From the NCBI GenBank assembly GCA_943736015.1, contig OX031069.1:18543235-18607234 (forward strand): a DNA stretch of 64,000 nucleotides, written 5' to 3'. Source of the stretch: Tridacna crocea (lineage: Eukaryota; Mollusca; Bivalvia; Cardiida; Cardiidae). Position 1 is the stretch's first letter; each line of letters begins with the position of its first letter. The notes below the pieces were generated by a model that did no database searches, had not been told where the DNA came from, and saw only the letters and a program-made list of their open reading frames with translations. A program made the position numbers and the translations under genes. Below are positions 21,491 through 57,720 of this stretch, piece after piece.

Positions 21491-21552
21491 CGTCATTGGT
21501 ATTGGTATATTTATTATACGGAGGGGTAAATAACTATGATTTTAGTACTTGA

Positions 21553-21784
21553 TAAACCCATTACCACACAATCCCTACTTTTGACGACCCTTAGAAAGAA
21601 GCCTTTTGAAAACATTCTGGGAAAAAAGGAGAAAATGCTGGTAACCAGCATTTTTTTCCTTTTCCCACAATGTTTTCTACTCTTCACAAAACAAATTTCA
21701 AATTTTCAGTCACTTTCATTTTGTCGTCTGCATATGCTTTCGATTTGGACCAGCCAAAACTTTTATCGTTTGGTAATGAGTAAA
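21553..21784. mobile_element. TTAA palindromic MITE, family C
   Basis: AACCCATTACCACACAATCC ... TTTGGTAATGAGT, with the hairpin centre ATGCTGGTAACCAGCAT. The terminal TTAA are partly eroded. Confidence 0.8.
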
Positions 21785-21796
21785 AGAAGCCTGCTT

Positions 21797-22765: not shown

Positions 22766-23059
22766 ACCAAGTTGTATCAACTCGGAGGAAAACAAGTTTC
22801 TTTTTAAAAAAATATGGGAAAAAGAGATATATTAGTCGCGTTCATTTTGTTGTCTGCATATGATTTCAATTTTCACTAGTCTGAGAAATTAGTCTTTGAT
22901 GGAGAGATTTATTTTAGTTGTCCAAACAGAGAGCATTTAAAAAAAAAACTCAATGTGATTTTACTGAAGAGATCAGTCGCTGAAAGGGTTTAAAATGCAT
23001 TAAATGCATCTTATCTTTTCCTACCAATATTTACAAAAAGCCTGTCTTTGCAAGGGTCG
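22766..23059. other. Short gap with scattered MITE-like words
   Basis: Words such as TTTTGTTGTCTGCATATGAT resemble the right half of family C, so this is probably a decayed copy. Confidence 0.3.
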
Positions 23060-23287
23060 TTAACTCATTACCAAACGACAAAATTTTAGATTTGCCCAAA
23101 TTGAAAGCATTGGCAGACGCCATAATAAAAGTGGCCGAAAATTCGAAATTTGTTTCGTGAAAGGTAGAAAACATTGTGGGAAAAGGAGAAAATGCTGGTT
23201 ACCAGCATTTTCTCCTTTTCCCTCGGTGTTTTCTAAAGGCTTCTTTCTCAGGGTCGTCAAAAGTAGGGATTGTGTGGTAATGGGTTA
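23060..23287. mobile_element. TTAA palindromic MITE, family C
   Basis: Complete: TTAACTCATTACCAAACGAC ... GTGGTAATGGGTTAA, centre ATGCTGGTTACCAGCAT. TTAA at both borders. Confidence 0.88.
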
Positions 23288-23293
23288 AAACAC

Positions 23294-23517
23294 GGGGTTC
23301 TGTTAAAGGATAGGGGACCCTAATAGGATTCGTGTAACATCGCCATTCCTAAAAACATACAGATTCGGCAAAGACACGGGTATTCCGTAATCGATGCGGG
23401 AAACCAGCGAGTATCGGCCGGTCGATTGCGGATTATTAGAGGCTTAGCCGAATCTGTACGTTTTTTGACGATGTAAGGCGATGTCACAAGAATCCCATTT
23501 GGTTACCCACTCCTTAA
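23294..23517. mobile_element. TTAA MITE family K copy 2
   Basis: TTAAAGGATAGGG at one end and CCCACTCCTTAA at the other, with inner inverted pair GGATTCGTGTAACATCGCC / GGCGATGTCACAAGAATCC. It lies 6 bp from the preceding C element and shares its final TTAA (23514-23517) with the next one. Confidence 0.75.
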
Positions 23518-23836: not shown

Positions 23837-24224
23837 CATCTTCGCGAGCCAAGGTTACGATCACTACGTGGATCTTACCTTGGCTGATTGAGCCCGATTT
23901 CGAGCCCTCTATTGGATACTGGTTATTACCCCCTTTACATCATATTTCTAAAAGCCAATGAAATATCGTTTTACAAACCGCTTACAAATACACATGAAGC
24001 GAGAAGCAGACATCCACGTGGGTTTCCATGTGTACCTTCTATTCGAAAGGTAGCGACCTTGTTCTATCTTTATCAAAGATGAAATGCTACGAGCGATTTC
24101 ATTCGTTGCAGTTAGAGCTGGCTGCATCCAAAGAAAAAGCGTATCGGGGGAATGTAAAAATCAAGCTAGATCCGCCAAGGGTAGAGTAGCGTAGTGAATC
24201 GTCAGCCTTGGCTTGCATAGATGT
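23837..24224 (+). mobile_element. hAT-like MITE family H copy 1 with 8-bp TSD
   Basis: Inverted ends CATCTTCGCGAGCCAAGG and CCTTGGCTTGCATAGATG. The 8-bp word GTGATAGC occurs at 23829-23836 and again at 24225-24232, immediately outside the ends. An inverted copy of the same element lies at 30971-31380. Assignment to hAT rests on the TSD length and its NTNNNNNN form; no transposase is present. Confidence 0.8.
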
Positions 24225-27767: not shown

Positions 27768-27963
27768 TATCCTTCTAGATAACTAGAAATCAAATTTTCA
27801 GTCGATATTGATGATCAAAATATTGCTATTTTAAAGTGATGTTTTGGGGGACAAAATCTCCTTATCGGACAGTGTAGATCAAAGATCAGACTGAATGCTC
27901 TTTTATCTTTGATCTACACTGTCCGCAAAAGACCATTAAATCGCACTGGGCAGATTAAGGGTT
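27768..27963. mobile_element. TTAA MITE family N
   Basis: CATTATCCTTCTAG at the left; stem TCGGACAGTGTAGATCAAAG / CTTTGATCTACACTGTCCGC; right end ATTAAGGGTTAA. The hairpin loop is shorter than in other copies. Confidence 0.75.
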
Positions 27964-27969
27964 AAAAGT

Positions 27970-28721
27970 GTCCCAGTCGCACGCTCTGCTCCTGGTCCCC
28001 GTACTTCGGTGTTAAAATCATACAAGTCATTCAGTTTGCTCATGGTTCCTATTCTTTTGTGCTCAAATTTTTTCATCGTGCAGCTCCGCTTGATTGCTAG
28101 TATTTGATGCTCAATTTTCCTAGTGTTGTAGGCTGCTCCTTCATCTCCTTTTCGATGCTCAGATTATTCTTGTCGCGCAGTATGCTCTTTGTCGTTAATT
28201 TTCAGTGTTTAATTTATACAATTCATACAGTTGGTCTTGGTCCGTAGTGTTCGATTCTCAAATGATCTCAATCATGCAGGCTATTCTCAGTCACTAGTCT
28301 TTCGTGCTTAATTCCAGTCGCACAAACTGCTCTTGTCCTTTTAGTCCTTGGACCTTAAGTTAATTCCAATCGTGCAGCCTACTTTTTGTCCCTTGTCTTT
28401 GAGTGCTGCAACTACCAAATTCGTGCGGACTGCTCTTCATCCCCAGTCTTCGGTGCTTATACTATCCCGCTCTTTATCCTTCTTATGCTCGTAGTTTCGC
28501 TCTTTAAAGTCTTAAAGATTACTGGCCATATTGTCACATCCCACACATTGGTACTCAAATAATCCTTGTCATACAGCCGGCATATAGTTTCTATTTCTCA
28601 GTAATTGCTCAAATTGTTCTTAGTCACTACTCCTTTATGCTCAAAATTAGCCTAGATTGTGAAGTTAAGATCTCAAATCCTCAACACTTGTACAAATTAC
28701 ACAAGTCTTGCAATCTTGGTT
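27970..28721 (+). repeat. Degenerate satellite of about 50-bp units, left block
   Basis: Units begin GTGCTCAAATT or GATGCTCA and contain TCGTGCAGNCTGCTCTT and CAGTC/TTAGTCACTAGTCTTTC words, at about 47-52 bp spacing, for about 15 units. The array resumes after the Polinton remnant at 33436 in the same orientation. Confidence 0.65.
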
Positions 28722-28727
28722 CTAGAT

Positions 28728-29214
28728 AGTAGTACAGGGGTCACTTTGGAGGTACCCTTTTGACCTACTTTCGGCCTTCGTGTTACTATATTTAGAAACT
28801 CATTTGCATAAAAGGAGTTCTTGGTGTGTCATTGGTATTCGTGGCTGGTATGGTGAGTCTGCCATTTTGGATGAGGATCGGCCATGTTGGATAAGGGTGG
28901 TACATGTTGGATCAGGATCAGTATGCAGAGCTGACGTGTATACTTCGTGCTGGTAAGCACTCGCTAGCATTGAGAATCAGGCTCTCTCCTTACCAGACGA
29001 TAAATAAATGTGTAAATAATTTACTTAAAGCTCCGCGATATGCCCTGGTCAAAGTGTGGATAACGGTAGGTTATGTTGGATCAGGATCATGATGCAGAGC
29101 TGAGTGTATACCTCGTGCTGGCGGGCAGGCCCTTTCATCACCAGACGATAAATAAATTTACCCCTGTCTGATGTGCACTCCTCAAGGTCCTACTCTCAAA
29201 TGAGGTCTTAAGTC
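28728..29214 (+). repeat. Left terminal inverted repeat of the Polinton remnant
   Basis: Pairs with 32880-33429 and with the extra inverted copy 32014-32486. Contains two internal subrepeats marked by ACCAGACGATAAATAAAT and GTTGGATCAGGATCA, so the repeat is itself duplicated. Confidence 0.75.
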
Positions 29215-29314
29215 CAGAACAGAGTCTAAGGTAAAAGGATGCTCATGCGTGATGCTATACTTAGTTATGTGATCATCAACTATGTTTAGAGTCATTACAT
29301 CAGCTATAATAGGG

Positions 29315-29700
29315 GTCAGAAGGTCTGAACAATGGTCTTTTGTTAATATCATCAGCGTGTCTGGGTTCTATTGATATAAGACCGGATATCAGAACAATAC
29401 CCTCTTGAACTGTCAAATTAAATCCCTTAACAGAGGAAATTAAGGCAGAGCGATGGTCTTTTGTAAGTGTCGCCATACTGTCTGGGTTTGTTTCTTTTGT
29501 GACGGAAGTACGAAGAATGACCTATTCAACTGTCAAAGTTAATCCCCTAACAAAGGATCAGGTAGCTGAACAATAATCCTTTGTTACAGTCGCTACACTA
29601 TCTGGTTTTGTTTATTTGTTGCAGAAGTACGGACAATACCTATTCAACTATCAAACTTAATCCTTTTTCAGTTTTTCAAGTCGTCAGCATGTCTGGCTTC
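29315..29700 (+). repeat. Three to four tandem units of about 120 bp inside the Polinton
   Basis: GAACAATGGTCTTTTGT, GAACTGTCAAATTAAATCCC and the matching words recur near 29329, 29450 and 29563. Confidence 0.65.
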
Positions 29701-29734
29701 TGTTGACATAGAACCGGAAGTTCAGCCAATAGCC

Positions 29735-30345
29735 TTTTCAACAAAAGGACCTCGAGCCTATACCCATAAAACGGATTGAAATTGGACCAATCAGAAACAG
29801 GGATTTCCGACCAATTAGATTGCAGGATGTTTCGACCAATCAGAATACAGGAAAATGACGTAATGTTCTAAAATAGATCATGCTTTCCGTTGGAGAGCAT
29901 ATAAGAAGGCACACAACTCTAGTTCTTCATTCTGACTTCAGAATTACAACTGACAGTATAGAACACACCCTGGAAATGATAGTGAATGGTTTCAACGAAA
30001 GGGAAGACCGGATGGCCTTTGCAGTAACATGGGATATACAAGTTTGACTTATATTTGACCTCAAAGTACATTCAAAATTTTGTAAACATCAACACGTATT
30101 TGTCAGACAAATTAGATTACAGGACGCTTCGACCAATCAAAACACAGGAAAATGATGTTATGTTCTAAAAATAGATCATGCTTACTGTAGGAGACTATAA
30201 AAGAAGGCACACAATTCTAGTCTTCATTCTGACTTCAGAACTGCAACTGACAACATGGAACATGGAACACCCACTGGAAATGATAGTGAATTGTTTCAAC
30301 GAAGCAGAAGACCTGATGGCCTTTGCGGTAACATGGGATATACAA
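29735..30345 (+). promoter_or_regulatory. Duplicated promoter-like segment of the Polinton remnant
   Basis: Two copies of one segment carry GACCAATCAG-type CCAAT boxes and a TATA-like box (CATATAAGAAGG near 29898; CTATAAAAGAAGG near 30194), followed by the shared TTCATTCTGACTTCAGAA. The spacing is that of an RNA polymerase II core promoter. Part of the fossil; no claim of activity. Confidence 0.5.
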
Positions 30346-30359
30346 TTCCCGGCTTTATC

Positions 30360-31806
30360 AGTTGAGAAACCGAGGGAATGAAAACCAAGTGGTCAACACA
30401 GAGATAATAGACGAGATGGAAGACAACTTGGAGTTGGCCGTGGAGTATTTGATGGAGCAAGAGGAGATAGAGGGAACCATCAAAGCCCTAATCTTTGATG
30501 ACGAAAGGGAGGTGCTTGCCCAAACCTGCGCAGAAAATGGAGAGTGTTATACCCCAGTACAAGAAGCTAGGAGAGATGAACCACAACCCAGACCATCGCA
30601 TCAACTATAGTATACTATGAAAAAAAACCTCACAACGCACTTATGCAAAAAAATGCAGCTATAGAGTGAACTTACAGGGTGAAAATAGACGAAAAATACA
30701 ATGGAGACCAACTCAAAGACGTGAGAGAGGGTCTCCATGACATGATGCAGGACGTATTGAGCCAGGTCCGGGGAATTTAGAAAGGAACAATTTAGGGTGT
30801 GTGGTGATACACCATGATGGATTGCACGACCCTGTCGTCGTCCCCCTCCAGGCCTGGGAGCAACTGGAAGCAACCAAAGTGATGAAGACCCTGCAAAACG
30901 TACTGAACAGCAACGAGAAACTCTCCATCAATGAAAGTTTCTTAATCACTATAGGCACCGGGGTAAATACATCTTCGCAAGCCAATGCCGACGATTCACT
31001 ACGCTACTCTACCCTAAGCGGATCGAGCTTGATTTTTACATTCACCCTATATGCTTTTTCATTGGATGCAGCCAACTCTAGCTGCATCGAATGTAATCAC
31101 TCATAGCATTTCATCTTTCATGAAAATAGAACAAGGTCTCTACCTTTCGAATAGAAGGTAAAACAAAGCAATCCGTGTGAATGTTTGCTATTCGCTTCAT
31201 GGGTATTCGTAAGCGGTTTGTAAAACGATATTTCATTTGTTTTTAGAAATATAATGTAAAGGGGGATAATACCCAGCATCCAATAGAGGGCGCATCGCAG
31301 GAATCTCGAAATCGGGCTCAATCAGCCAAGGTAAGATCAACGTAGTGATCGTGATCGTAAACTTGGTTCGAAAAGATGGGGTAAATACAGACAGAAAATC
31401 AAGCCTCAACGATATAGAAGCGTTTGAAGAACTTCTTGAGGTTCGTGTGATGATGGTGAATGCACAGCTTGGCAACAAATTTATAACGGCGCCAAGCAGC
31501 GATGATCATCCATGCAATTATATTTATTTAGTGGTTGACGAGCACATTCATGCCATTACCAACATCACAGGGTTCTTCAGCGCCATATACTTTTGCGACA
31601 AATGCCTCAAATATTGCAATAACAAAGAAAGGCATCAGTGCGAAATAAAGTGTGTTGTCTGCAAGAGAAACTTATGCTGCGATGAGAAGCCAGTAATGTG
31701 TAATAGCTGTAACATGATATGCAGATCTAGAGAGTGTTACAACGAACACAAGAAGGTCCCTTTGCATATTGAGGGGAAAAGGAAAGGACAACCCAGCTGT
31801 CCTTAA
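30360..31806 (+). pseudogene. Polinton DNA polymerase B region, decayed, with an inserted H element
   Basis: Parts resemble the region ahead of the catalytic domain of Polinton/adintovirus-type protein-primed family B polymerases. One is a segment of the DNPVxxPLxxxEQL type near 30820-30970. The other, after the insertion, is a Cys/His-rich segment near 31389-31806 with several CxxC pairs of zinc-binding type. The catalytic domain was not seen. The region is broken in several places and cut by the element at 30971-31380. Recognition is from memory of the family and not from a search. Confidence 0.6.
30971..31380 (-). mobile_element. hAT-like MITE family H copy 3, inside the Polinton remnant
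   Basis: Reverse-orientation copy of 23837-24224: ATCTTCGCAAGCCAATGCC at one end and TTGGTTCGAAAAGATG at the other. GTAAATAC flanks it at 30963-30970 and 31381-31388 (GGGTAAATAC if extended). Clean insertion with TSD, so it postdates the Polinton. Confidence 0.82.
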
Positions 31807-32013
31807 CAATGCGAGAAATGTTCGAAATGCCCATCTGTTATAAAGTTGTGAGACTGGGCCAGAGAAAGAAAGAAGACCATGATTGTGGAGAATATTGTAC
31901 TACCTAGGTAATGGACGACCACAAGTGCTATTTGAGAGCGACACCAGTAAAAGAACATATGCGCTACAACAAATTTTGGTCGGTGGATCGCTTTACCGCA
32001 CCATGACATTTTT

Positions 32014-32740
32014 GAACTTAAGGCCTCATTTGAGAGTAGGACCTTGAGGAGTGCACATCGGAGACAGGTAAATATGTTTATTTATGTACAATATTTATCG
32101 TCTGGTAAGGAAAGGGCCTGCCCGCATGTACTTACCAGCACGAGGTATATACTCAGCTCTGTATACTGATCCTGATCCAAGACAACCTACCCTTATCCAC
32201 ACTTTCACAAGGGCACATTACGGACCTGTAGTTAATTATTTACATATTCATTTATCGTCTGGTAAGGAAAGGGCCTGATTTACAATGCCAGCGAGTGCTT
32301 ACCAGCACGAGGTATACACGTCAGCTCTACATACTGATCCTGATCCAATATGGCCGAACCTTATTCAACATGACCGATCCTCATCCAAAATGGCGGTAAA
32401 TATAGTAACATGATGGCCGAAAGTAGGTCAAAATTACGACCGATTACGTCATCTTTGTTTTCCTCCAAATTGACCCCTATGCTACTATCTAGAACCTAGA
32501 TTGCAAGACTTGGCAATTTGTACAAGAATTGAGGATTGGAGATCTTAAATAGACAATCTAGGTTGATTTTGAGCATAAAGGAGTAGTGACCAAGACAAAT
32601 TTGAGCAATTACTGAGAAATGGATTATTTGAGCACCGACGAGTTGGATGAGACAACATGGCCATTAATCTTTAAGATTTTAAAGAGGGGAATTACGAGAA
32701 GACTGCATGACTTGGGTTATTGGTGCATCGAGGAAGCAAG
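32014..32740 (-). repeat. Inverted extra copy of the Polinton left end plus its satellite flank
   Basis: 32014-32486 is the reverse complement of the left terminal repeat. Beyond it comes ATCTAG, the reverse of the left flank CTAGAT, and then satellite words in reverse orientation to about 32740. So the copy includes host flank, which an element end alone would not. Confidence 0.7.
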
Positions 32741-32879
32741 GGGGTCAGAGCCTTCATTCACTTACAATTCATGCTGACATTTTTTTACTATTATTTGAAA
32801 ATGTTTTAAACTTCAAAGTGACATGGTTTGTTATTGACAAACTAGGTGGCAAATCAGAATTTGTGTAACTTTACAAATC

Positions 32880-33429
32880 AGAAAGACTGAGAATAAGGCC
32901 TCATGTGACATTAGGACCTTGAGCACATCAGAGAGAGGTAAATCTATCTATTTATTTATTTACTTATCGTCTGGTAAGGAAAGGGCCTGACCTGCAATGC
33001 CCACGAGTACTTACCAGCACGAGGTATACACTCAGCTCTATATACCGATCTTTATCCATTACAACCGACCCTTATCCACACTTTAATCAGGGCACATCGC
33101 AGAGCAGTAGGTAATTATTTACATATTTATCAATCGTCTTGTAAGGAAAGGGCCTGATCCTGAATGCCCGCGAGTGGTTCCAAGCACGAGGTATACACGT
33201 CAGCTCTGTATACCGATCCTGATCCAACATAGCCGACCCTTATTCAACATGGCCAATCCTCATCCAACATGGCGGACTCACCATACCTGCCACAAATACG
33301 TATGACACACCAACAACTCCTTTTATGCAAATGAGTTACTAAATGTAGTAACACGATGGCCGAAAGTAGGTCAAGATTACCATCGATTACGTCATCTTAG
33401 TTTACCTCCAAAGTGACCCCTATACTACT
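32880..33429 (-). repeat. Right terminal inverted repeat of the Polinton remnant
   Basis: Reverse complement of the left repeat: TATCGTCTGGTAAGGAAAGG twice, TCCAACATGGCGGACTCACC, ending CCCCTATACTACT. Confidence 0.75.
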
Positions 33430-33644
33430 CTTGATCTCCTCTTCTCAGTATTAAAATTGTCCTAGTCTTGTAGCCTGTTCTTAGTCACTGTTCGTCAATG
33501 GTCAAATAATTATGTCAGAATTATTTGTCCATCGACGAATACTGACTAAGAACATACAGTCATAAAGTCTGCTTACTCTCTGCACTCCCCGAAGCCGATA
33601 TCGTCCAAGTCTTGCAGTTTGTTTGATCTTAGTCTGAACTCAAC

Positions 33645-33985: not shown

Positions 33986-34266
33986 GCTCTGTCCCATCTC
34001 CTCAATGGCCAACTAATCAACTAAAATTCTTTTAGTTTTGCAGTCTATTCCAGGTCCCTTTCTCTTTGTTGGAAAATCAGCTGGAAACCATTTTTTTCCC
34101 CATTTCCCTACAATGTGAGAAAATCATCTGGAAACAAATTTTAATTTTTGAGTTATGTTTATTTTGTTGTTTACAAGTGCTTTCAACTTGGATCGGTATA
34201 AAAAAAAAAATCGACGTTTGATCTTCAAAACGTTTTATTGTTTGCTGTTTTGCTACCTACGTGTAT

Positions 34267-34498
34267 TTAACCTATTGTAACACAAACCTTACTTTTGACG
34301 ACCTTGAGAAAGAAGCCGATAGAGGACGCTGTGAGAAAAGGAGAAAATGTTGGTAACCGGCATTTTCTCTTTTTCCCACAGCATTTTTCTACTCTTCCCA
34401 AATCAGATTTCAATTATTCTTATTCACAATTATATTGTCTTCTGCAGATGCTTTTAATTTGGACTAGTTCAAAATATTGCCGTTTGGTAAAGAGTTAA
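34267..34498. mobile_element. TTAA palindromic MITE, family C
   Basis: TTAACCTATTG ... GTTTGGTAAAGAGTTAA, centre ATGTTGGTAACCGGCAT with paired changes at the stem. TTAA at both borders. Confidence 0.83.
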
Positions 34499-34504
34499 AT
34501 TTTT

Positions 34505-40009: not shown

Positions 40010-41940
40010 CGCTGGAGAACTCCAGGAAAGATATATTTCCGCTAGACACCGTTACATGACATGGAAAAATGTCGAAAACAAAAACTGCAGGAGTCTTCGG
40101 AAGAGTCTATGTGCTCTATCCAACGTTACATGAAAAGGAAAAATGCTCTAGCTAACGTCATATGACATGGAAAAATGTCAAAAAACGAAAACTGCTGCAG
40201 CCTTATGAAGAGCCTATGTGCTCTAGCCAACGTTATATGACATGGAAAAGTGTCAAAAAACGAAAACTGCTGCAGCCTTATGAAGAGCCAATGTGCTCTA
40301 GCCAACGTTATATGACATGGAAAAGTGTCAAAAAACGAAAATTGCAGCAGCCTTATGAAGAGCCAATGTGCTATAGCCAATGTCATATGACCTGGAAAAG
40401 TGTCAAAGAACGAAAACTGCAGCAGCCTTATGAAGAGCCAATGTGCTATAGCCAACGTCATATGACATGGAAAAGTGTCAAAGAACGAAAACTGCAGCAG
40501 CCTTATGAAGAGCCAATGTGCTATAGCCAACGTCATATGACATGGAAAAGTGTCAAAAAACGAAAACTGCAGCAGCCTTATGAAGAGCCTGTGTACTCTA
40601 GCCAACCTTATATGACATGGAAAAATGTCAAAAATGAAAACTGCAGCAGCCTTATGAAGAGCCTATGTGCCCAAGCCAACGTTTTATGCTACGGAAAAAT
40701 GTCTAAAAACGAAAACTGCAGCAGCGTTATGAAAAGCCTTTATGCTCTAGCCACATTATATGACAAGGAAAAATGTCAAAAACGAAAACTTCAGGAGCCT
40801 CTGAAAAAGCCTATGTGCTCTAGGCAACGTCACATGACATGGACAAATGTCGAAAACAAAACCTGCAGGAGCCTCTGGAAGAGTCTATGTGCTCTATCCA
40901 ATGTAATGAAAAGGAAAAATGCCAAAAGCAAACACTGCAGGAGCCTTTGGATAAGCCTATGTGCTACATGACACGAGAAAATGTCTAAAACGAAAACTTC
41001 AAGAGCCTTTGGAAGAGCCTATGTACTCAAGCCAACGTTACATAACATGAAAAAATGTCAAAAACAAACACTGCAGGAGCCTTTGGAAGAGCCTATGTGC
41101 TCTAGCCAACCTTATATGACATTGAAAAATGTCAAAAACGAAAACATCACGCCTTATGAAAAGCCTATGTGTTCTTGCCAACGTTACATGACATTAGAAA
41201 ATGTCCAAAACGAAATCTTCAGGAGCCTTTGGAAGAGCCTATGTGCCCCAGCCAAGATTACATGACACTGAAAAATGTCAAAAACCTAAACTTCAGGAGC
41301 CTTATGAAGAGCCTATGTGCTCTACCCAACGTCACATGTCATGGACAAATGTCAAAAACGAAAACTTCAGGAGCCTTTGGAAGAGCCTATGTGCCCTAGT
41401 CAACGTTGCATGACATGGACAAAATGTCAAAAAGAAAAACTGCAGGAGCTTATGTGCTCTAGCCAACGTTACATGACATGGAAAAATGTCAAAAGCGAAA
41501 ACTTCAGGAGCCCTAGGAAGAGCCTATGTACTCTAGCCAAAGATACATGACATGGACAAAATGTCATAAAGAAAAACTGCAGGAGCCTTTGGAAGAGCCT
41601 ATGCGTCTAGCCAACGTTATATGACATGAACAAATGTCAAGAACGAAAACTGCACTAACCTCTGGAAGAGCCTATGTGCTCTAGCCAACGTTATCTGACA
41701 TAGACAAGTGTCAAGAACGAAATCTGCAGGAACCTCTGGAAGAGCTTATGTGCTCTAGCCAACGTTACATGACATGGAAAAATGCTTAAAAAAAACTTCT
41801 AGGAGCCTATAGAAGGGCCTATGTACTCTAGCCAACGTTACATGACATGATGCCAAAAGACAAAATTCCAGGACCTTTTGGAAGGGCCTATGTACTCTAG
41901 CCAACGTTACATGACATGGACAAATGTCAAAAACGAGTGA
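40010..41940 (+). repeat. Minisatellite, 75-bp unit, about 26 copies
   Basis: CCTTATGAAGAGCC recurs at 40201, 40276, 40351 and 40426, exactly 75 bp apart; outside this homogeneous block the unit is 70-75 bp and more varied. Each unit holds ATGACATGGAAAAATGTC and GTGCTCTAGCCAACGTTA. Because 75 is a multiple of three, frames stay open on both strands (269 codons at 40162-40971, with a 25-residue repeat starting MTWK). Both strands being open and the lack of splice signals argue against a gene. Confidence 0.92.
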
Positions 41941-57208: not shown

Positions 57209-57491
57209 AACCAGAGTTAACTGCAACCGAGGATGATTCTGATTAGCATTTATCATCCCTTTTTAAAAAAAAAAAACGAAAACAATAAACTCTAAAATTA
57301 TCACCCATTGCGGACATTGAAGATTGAGACCAGACTTTGAGTACATGTATGTATTTTGCTTTCTGATCTTACATCTATGCCGTTCAGTATTTTGTGAGAT
57401 AACTTCACCAAAAAATAGAATTGACATTCGAATATTATGGGGGTTTCTTTTTTTAATTCATTACTTACTTATGTAGAGATCCACAGTTAGT

Positions 57492-57720
57492 TTAACTCAT
57501 TACCAAACGACAATATTTTAGGTTTGTCCAGATTGAAAGTATTTGCAGACGACAAAATGAAAGTAACTGAAAAATGGAAATTTGTTTTGTAAAGGGCAGA
57601 AAACATTGTGGGAAAAGGAGAAAATGCTGGTTACCAGCATTTTCTCCTTTTCCCACAATGTTTTCTAAAGGTTTCTTTCTCAGGGGCGTCAAAAGTAGGG
57701 ATTGTGTGGTAATGGGTTAA
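57492..57720. mobile_element. TTAA palindromic MITE, family C
   Basis: TTAACTCATTACCAAACGAC ... GTGTGGTAATGGGTTAA, centre ATGCTGGTTACCAGCAT. Complete. A new C left end starts at 57771. Confidence 0.87.

Follow-up and report, generated by a model that had tools for sequence, protein, structure and literature searches.

What kind of element leaves behind a short remnant with Polinton-type ends, a six-base target duplication and fragments of a family B DNA polymerase (PolB) gene? This question is raised by an element in a 64,000-nt stretch of the Tridacna crocea genome (C14:18543235-18607234; here referred to as the window), which an earlier note, made from the letters alone, had described as a Polinton/Maverick fossil. 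With a probability of roughly 0.75, we read it as an old, collapsed copy of a palindromic element derived from a Polinton. Absent from the earlier note were the palindromic structure of the family and two features of the locus itself, i.e., three end repeats with an inverted host flank and a 409-bp miniature inverted-repeat transposable element (MITE) inside the PolB gene. The genome searched comprises 1.05 Gb in 31 contigs.

The element spans positions 28728-33429 of the window. It begins with AGTAGTACAGGGG and finishes with CCCTATACTACT, and its AGTAGT/ACTACT ends lie within inverted repeats; the AG...CT ends noted before are verified to the exact coordinate. The inverted end repeat extends over 262 nt at 88% complementarity with further blocks beyond, and alignment of the left end repeat (L) with the outermost right one (R2) covers 476 positions (p=0.143). 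The repeat is far above chance level. The flanks, CTAGAT and CTTGAT, show the single difference previously recorded (5/6 identical). From the base composition, agreement at 5/6 or better has a chance of 0.6%, and the duplication taken alone is modest evidence.

The two nearest copies, L010 (18.20 Mb) and L011 (17.77 Mb), are on the same contig as the window and are segmental duplicates of its locus. They match the window in and beyond the element (27956-28481 on the left side of L011, and to 35070 on the right side), and are 97.6% identical to each other over 4859 aligned bases. On the left side both show CCAGAT and lack three bases of the element end, and on the right both read CTAGAT. Hence, a perfect pair is kept at none of the three loci, CCAGAT/CTAGAT likewise agreeing at 5/6. 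With all three loci combined, CTAGAT is the common reading, which suggests that the original target duplication was CTAGAT. Because L010 and L011 are segmental duplicates and not separate insertions, a non-autonomous form, one of two explanations offered earlier for the small size, is not supported for the window copy.

Polymerase remains occupy the inner part of the element. Against Pfam and PHROGs, no window frame had a match better than E 0.1. Three of these frames align to the open PolB frames found in two full-length relatives, with 61-84% amino acid identity (E 2e-32 to 2e-61). The relatives' frames, each ended by the border of the piece, comprise at least 1432 and at least 1096 codons and match PF03175 (DNA_pol_B_2; 1.4e-48 and 1.8e-23), which bears out the polymerase-B-like remains reported for the window. 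The longer one contains DFTSLYP, KLCLNSFWG, and YYDTD, which we take to be polymerase motifs. The window frames correspond to the N-terminal part of PolB, upstream of the Pfam domain, and the catalytic domain is missing from the window. One stretch of this PolB (31402-31958) is only 70% identical to the long copies, as compared with 79-84% for neighboring stretches. For a window frame of 178 amino acids, the PDB sequence search gave weak zinc-finger-type matches only (best E 0.067), and the structure model was unusable (mean predicted local distance difference test score, 36.9). IMG/VR, scanned by peptide and by DNA pattern, yielded no relative; its sole pattern match, L001, was rejected, all frames on the strand that matched being shorter than 40 codons.

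Measured on the polymerase gene of L036, the left-arm PolB in the window runs to position 2225 and is followed directly by PolB in the opposite orientation, from position 2429. This inverted right-arm PolB amounts to 54 bp at 90.7% in the window; L010 and L011 retain 207-211 bp of it (89-90%), and the junction is identical. Left-arm PolB succeeded by inverted right-arm PolB suggests a palindrome whose center was lost before the segmental duplication. Moreover, since the junction is common to the window, L010, and L011, the palindromic form is at least as old as that duplication.

Palindromic relatives in the genome

The left-end probe (28722-29160) gave at least 46 matches in the genome. From these, nine clean plus/minus pairs, 17-19 kb apart, were chosen as long copies. 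A cluster on C10, solo ends, and short copies are outside the nine and were examined separately, in part. The copy on C1, found later and likewise outside the nine, was seen at its ends, its center, and its PolB pair; its flanks both read TCAGTT if the left end has one extra AGT. All nine long copies have AGTAGTA ends and perfect 6-bp duplications, with flanks that differ between copies, and their lengths are 17,108-18,928 bp. The ends of the window element coincide with the borders of these other copies in 9/9, a check that the earlier note had proposed. Its suggestion of a copy reduced through internal loss agrees with relatives of ~17.5 kb and a window palindrome without its center.

Pieces taken 3 kb inside the ends are inverted self-copies in 9/9, with 0-4 differences per 580-600 aligned bases, and the direct-strand control aligned over 20-110 bp only. 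In the C8 copy, the outer pieces are inverted copies of each other at 99.97% over 3321 bp, with a polymerase frame in each. The palindrome reaches within ~50 bp of the midpoint in 7/9, and the stem at the center, with a loop of ~36 nt, is the same in all seven (in opposite orientation in two). Within-copy arm differences in the seven PolB-bearing copies total 7 in 4174 positions; between copies, the left pieces differ at 112 sites in 21 comparisons of ~590 bases (0-9 each). Agreement is thus closer between the arms of one copy than across copies, although some copy pairs are also identical. Just inside AGTAGTA (arm positions 8-10), the left and right ends of the long copies C5, C8, and C9 carry two alternative versions.

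The arms were read as pieces, type A from C17a and C4b and type B, with gaps, from C9 and C2a. Type A, represented by seven copies, carries PolB in each arm, with open frames of 1255-1558 codons that are stop-free in the matched stretches; C1 has a PolB frame of 992 codons in one arm. The rest of the type A arm, as read in C4b, contains 221-bp tandem repeats and no frame above 105 codons. Type B (C9 and C2a) has no PolB frame in the pieces read, PolB C-terminal relics near the center, and a frame of 156-159 codons with a BIR domain (2.7e-23 and 1.5e-22). BIR-domain frames of the inhibitor-of-apoptosis type, in palindromes without a PolB frame, are located at L092 1660-2139 and L062 1828-2295. 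In the arm pieces read, the large frames encode PolB or a BIR domain. Twenty frames (one in a host flank) scanned with Pfam yielded no retroviral-type integrase and no capsid, ATPase, or protease gene, with the limit that small or spliced genes could escape. In a genome count with PF03175, 70 of 454 candidates were scored and 140 listed matches were used, omitting the last ten weak ones at loci already counted. Among the matches listed there are at least 62 loci, eight of which have the arrangement ++-- and correspond to seven of the nine long copies and C1.

A central module of 238 bp is common to types A and B at 97.9%. Over 134 bp it matches the L036 polymerase gene (75%, E 4e-21). Across stem and loop, two neighboring segments correspond to polymerase residues 1241-1283 (60% and 71%). 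Judged from these alignments, the center looks like a fold-back inside the polymerase gene. Weaker matches to the module (~64-84%) point to further loci. Eight of ten tested are inverted self-copies 3 kb to either side (99.4-100% over ~900 bp), while C1:2980393 and C4:7794272 had no inverted match at 3 kb. With mismatched partners as a control, 6/10 aligned over 506-901 bp at 94.8-99.4%, three over ~100 bp at 68-83%, and one not at all. Mismatched partners align because several of the further loci are one family. Agreement within a copy is barely above that between copies, and the finding of further palindromes therefore rests on the inverted arrangement.

Five of the further loci were read outward. 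Those on C3, C5, and C8 terminate in AGTAGT, are flanked by perfect duplications (ACGATG, GCTATG, and GTCACT, respectively), and have arms that are 99.66-99.96% alike over 4.7-5.0 kb; at the C14 locus the inverted match halts without an AGTAGT end, and at the C13 locus it reaches the end of the piece. No frame above 172 codons was found inside the palindrome in the right-hand pieces of these five or the inner pieces of three others; the remainder of these palindromes may contain genes. In the host flank of the palindrome at C8:39.0M, a 231-codon frame (L125 4805-5497) has a sub-cut-off Cornifin match (1.1e-7), possibly a low-complexity resemblance. Smaller copies were also seen. On C2, a copy of 5.0 kb is flanked by a perfect duplication, GCAATG, and its inner arms are alike over 895 nt (100% as rounded); a 10.2-kb copy (C7:22479249-22489491, ends in L060 and L061) has AGTAGT ends, TTTCTA/TTTGTA flanks (5/6), and a partial central module.

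End repeats and the inverted host flank

The window element has three end repeats: L, which starts at 28728, an extra right repeat (R1), and R2, which extends to 33429 (Table 1). The left host flank reappears, inverted, beyond R1 and does not do so beyond R2. We refer to the surviving left flank as S and to its inverted copy, between R1 and R2, as S'. A genome search with this sequence (query 32488-32894) returned the window locus, L010, and L011, each with a match to either side of the insertion (six arms in all); the only other match listed is a weak one on C15 (73% over ~140 bp). Given this restriction to the three C14 loci, bar the weak match, S' is read as host sequence copied in inverted form. 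The concern that the flanks might continue as repeat at other loci is accordingly borne out in part: the left flank does recur in inverted form, both here and in L010 and L011, and elsewhere the C15 match alone is listed.

R2 ends inside the repeat, at the joint with S'. In the window, R1 appears to finish right at the inner border of the repeat; in L010 this border extends farther inward. R1 together with S' is best read as a repair scar. The pairwise distances between L, R1, and R2 are 0.13-0.16 at all three loci, and the nine end repeats from these loci form a single clade (100/100) separate from the long copies. Differences of 13-16% throughout and a single clade suggest that insertion, repair, and duplication were close in time and are not orderable by distance.

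Alternatively, R1, S', and R2 might constitute a compound end repeat, which we consider unlikely. It would suit the symmetry of the S-L and R1-S' arms, which all three duplicates have in common, and the CTAGAT that borders S on its outer side in L010 and L011. However, with S at three loci (six arms) and in one weak 73% match, this sequence does not stand beside other end repeats, and R2 is cut within the repeat at the S' joint.

Repeated right ends recur in the family. The C10 cluster (C10:17771390-17802159; L041-L045) consists of one left and four right end repeats, with TTTGTT at both outermost flanks, and its three inner right ends continue into the same sequence. Mutator-like elements resemble R1/R2 and the four right ends on C10 in having more than one end repeat per side; they differ in being plant transposons, and the abstract is silent on host flank between the repeats [PMC3310237]. 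A 959-bp copy on C16 (L039 195-1153) is nearly just two end repeats, with GCTCAA/GCTCGA flanks (5/6).

Origin of the palindromes

Vertebrate Mavericks have (AGT)2//(ACT)2 ends, 6-bp duplications, and an inward PolB module, and are 12.7-24.6 kb long; their end repeats of 46-1447 bp enclose two different gene modules, integrase and capsid included [PMC8097293]. The present family is similar in its ends, duplications, inward PolB near the end, and size. It differs in having arms that are inverted copies of each other wherever compared (as far as the center in 7/9), and the pieces read gave neither integrase nor capsid. AG...CT inverted-repeat ends, a 6-bp duplication (5/6 in the window, perfect in 9/9 long copies), and a family B polymerase, presumably of the protein-primed subtype as its family suggests, argue for a Polinton-derived element. 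In contrast, the unique center that a Polinton carries between limited end repeats is replaced by inverted identity at 3 kb in 9/9 long copies. Without integrase, capsid, and unique middle in the relatives' pieces, the element is not classed as a standard Polinton. The term Polinton fossil is therefore apt as regards ends, duplication, and PolB, and not as regards relatives that are palindromes, 7/9 with PolB in both arms.

A standard Polinton, with integrase, capsid, and a single PolB, could nevertheless have lost its middle at this locus, with the palindromes as a side branch that has only the ends in common. Standard Polintons are probably present in the genome, since 54 of the 62 PolB loci listed carry the gene on one strand only; moreover, the end repeats of the window copy diverge by 15-18% from their counterparts in the palindromes. 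We regard this account as distinctly unlikely, as inverted right-arm PolB follows left-arm PolB in the window and in both duplicates, and as the promoter-like stretch and the PolB 5' part of the window align to the palindromic copies.

Fold-back chimeric reads are known to occur, and the copies were read from the assembly. It is nonetheless very improbable that the palindromes are assembly artefacts of such reads: the copies have distinct flanks with direct 6-bp duplications (9/9), the same ~36-nt loop stands at the center in 7/9, and the old window copy retains a trace of the palindrome. Moreover, the two arms of a copy show 0-4 differences per 600 bp and are consequently separate sequences in at least four copies. 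Equally improbable is a foldback-type DNA transposon of another superfamily with a captured Polinton polymerase gene: long, internally repetitive inverted arms do recall Galileo/Foldback, which is described as having a P-superfamily transposase and is not PolB-based [PMC3573991], but the (AGT)2/(ACT)2 ends with 6-bp duplications and a PolB that adjoins one end and reads inward are as reported for Mavericks [PMC8097293]. The scanned frames gave no match to P-superfamily transposase, which non-autonomous forms would lack anyway.

How might a collapsed palindrome have arisen here? An extrachromosomal palindrome with arms of ~8.8 kb, PolB in each arm, and a PolB-derived stem-loop at its center may have been inserted at CTAGAT by a putative integrase of retroviral type, provided in trans. 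A break in the right end repeat would have followed, and the broken end would have copied the left repeat together with 0.4 kb of the left flank before it was joined back, possibly by end-joining, inside the right repeat. Subsequent loss of the palindrome center, duplication of the locus on the chromosome, and finally MITE insertion and small deletions would give the present window copy.

With respect to the relatives, both old and young copies are palindromic and the arms of the young ones are near-identical where compared, which suggests that the arms have probably been re-equalized repeatedly. The relatives probably arise, and their arms probably stay alike, through snap-back (hairpin) copying by the polymerase. 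In this scenario, protein-primed replication of a linear molecule would displace a single strand that folds back and, once copied, becomes a palindrome with two terminal origins. Adenovirus is known to form snapback genomes. Such genomes have also been reported for adeno-associated virus, as self-complementary derivatives with one genome end, a promoter, and part of the replication gene, which is the likeness to the present palindromes; they involve another polymerase and virus and are found in particles, as opposed to a chromosomal family with target duplications [PMC8235507].

We tentatively extend this to a wider model of self-complementary Polintons, possible rather than probable. The element would have been reduced to its polymerase end and doubled into a palindrome with a PolB-derived hairpin; hairpin copying would rewrite one arm from the other in every cycle, the integrase would be borrowed from standard Polintons, and the system would feed non-coding palindromic satellites. 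If the hairpin reading is true, an animal genome harbors an element of viral origin, coding for a polymerase, that has switched its topology to a fold-back palindrome, and Polintons become linked with linear plasmids and hairpin replicons. Irrespective of this, 17-kb palindromes can integrate and persist at many chromosomal sites. Loss of the center, as seen in the window, is one route of their decay, and, as the window copy indicates, palindromes in this family are old and not a recent accident. Among the titles and abstract openings listed in our literature search, with subscription Polinton papers outside its scope, no palindromic PolB-only Polinton derivatives with non-coding palindromic relatives were found.

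Several observations weigh against a collapsed palindrome with this history. The right-arm evidence in the window itself is 54 bp only, and the distances between L, R1, and R2 (all 0.13-0.16) do not separate repair, collapse, and duplication in time. CTAGAT at the outer edge of S, as discussed above, fits the compound repeat. The duplications call for a putative integrase from elsewhere. Moreover, the outermost 500 bp of the arms differ at 26 sites in C5, five in C9, three in C8, two in C4a, and one each in C11 and C2b, and the centers of C5 and C11 are displaced; neither is expected from simple one-arm copying.

Other features of the window

Table 1. Coordinates of the element and its parts, as positions of the window
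Feature	Position	Strand	Basis or remark
Left target-site duplication, CTAGAT	28722-28727		Sequence; CCAGAT in L010/L011
Right target-site duplication, CTTGAT	33430-33435		Sequence; CTAGAT in L010 and L011
S, surviving left host flank, probable template of S'	28486-28727	+	Outer part lost here, retained in L010/L011
Left end repeat L; inner part promoter-like	28728-30042	+	Counterpart of 29495-30042 near both ends of long copies
Promoter-like stretch, tandem copy 1	29796-30041	+	CCAAT at 29811 and 29836; TATAA at 29900
Promoter-like stretch, tandem copy 2	30091-30345	+	CCAAT at 30133; TATAA at 30196
Left-arm PolB region, 5' part	30106-30959	+	84% nucleotide identity to two long copies; frame broken
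Nested MITE, 30970-31378 (409 bp), with 9-bp duplications GGGTAAATA at 30961-30969 and 31379-31387	30961-31387		Repeat comparison
Left-arm PolB, Cys/His-rich, upstream of DNA_pol_B_2	31389-31958	+	70% nucleotide and 61-62% amino acid identity to long copies (frame 31270-31806)
Right-arm PolB piece, inverted, trace of palindrome	31959-32012	-	Junction common to L010/L011
Extra right end repeat R1	32010-32486	-	Repeat comparison
S', inverted copy of left host flank	32487-32894	-	Comparison with S; genome search
R2, the true right end repeat, of which the outer 535 bp are present	32895-33429	-	Repeat comparison

The promoter-like stretch is duplicated in the window and single in L010, in L011, and in the two long copies compared. 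The MITE lies within the dead PolB gene. A second copy of it, inverted, is found at ~23837-24223, with GCTATCACA on either side as a 9-bp direct repeat, and both copies have CATCT-type inverted ends. The length of the duplication, 9 bp, presumably indicates a Mutator-type MITE.

The outer flanks of the window element contain degenerate short repeats. A repeat of ~230 bp has many copies in the window, in both orientations (21552-21785, 23056-23294, 34260-34500, and 57491-57720, among others). Finally, positions 40112-41936 form a tandem array with units of ~75 bp, open for 271 codons on one strand and for 178 on the other.

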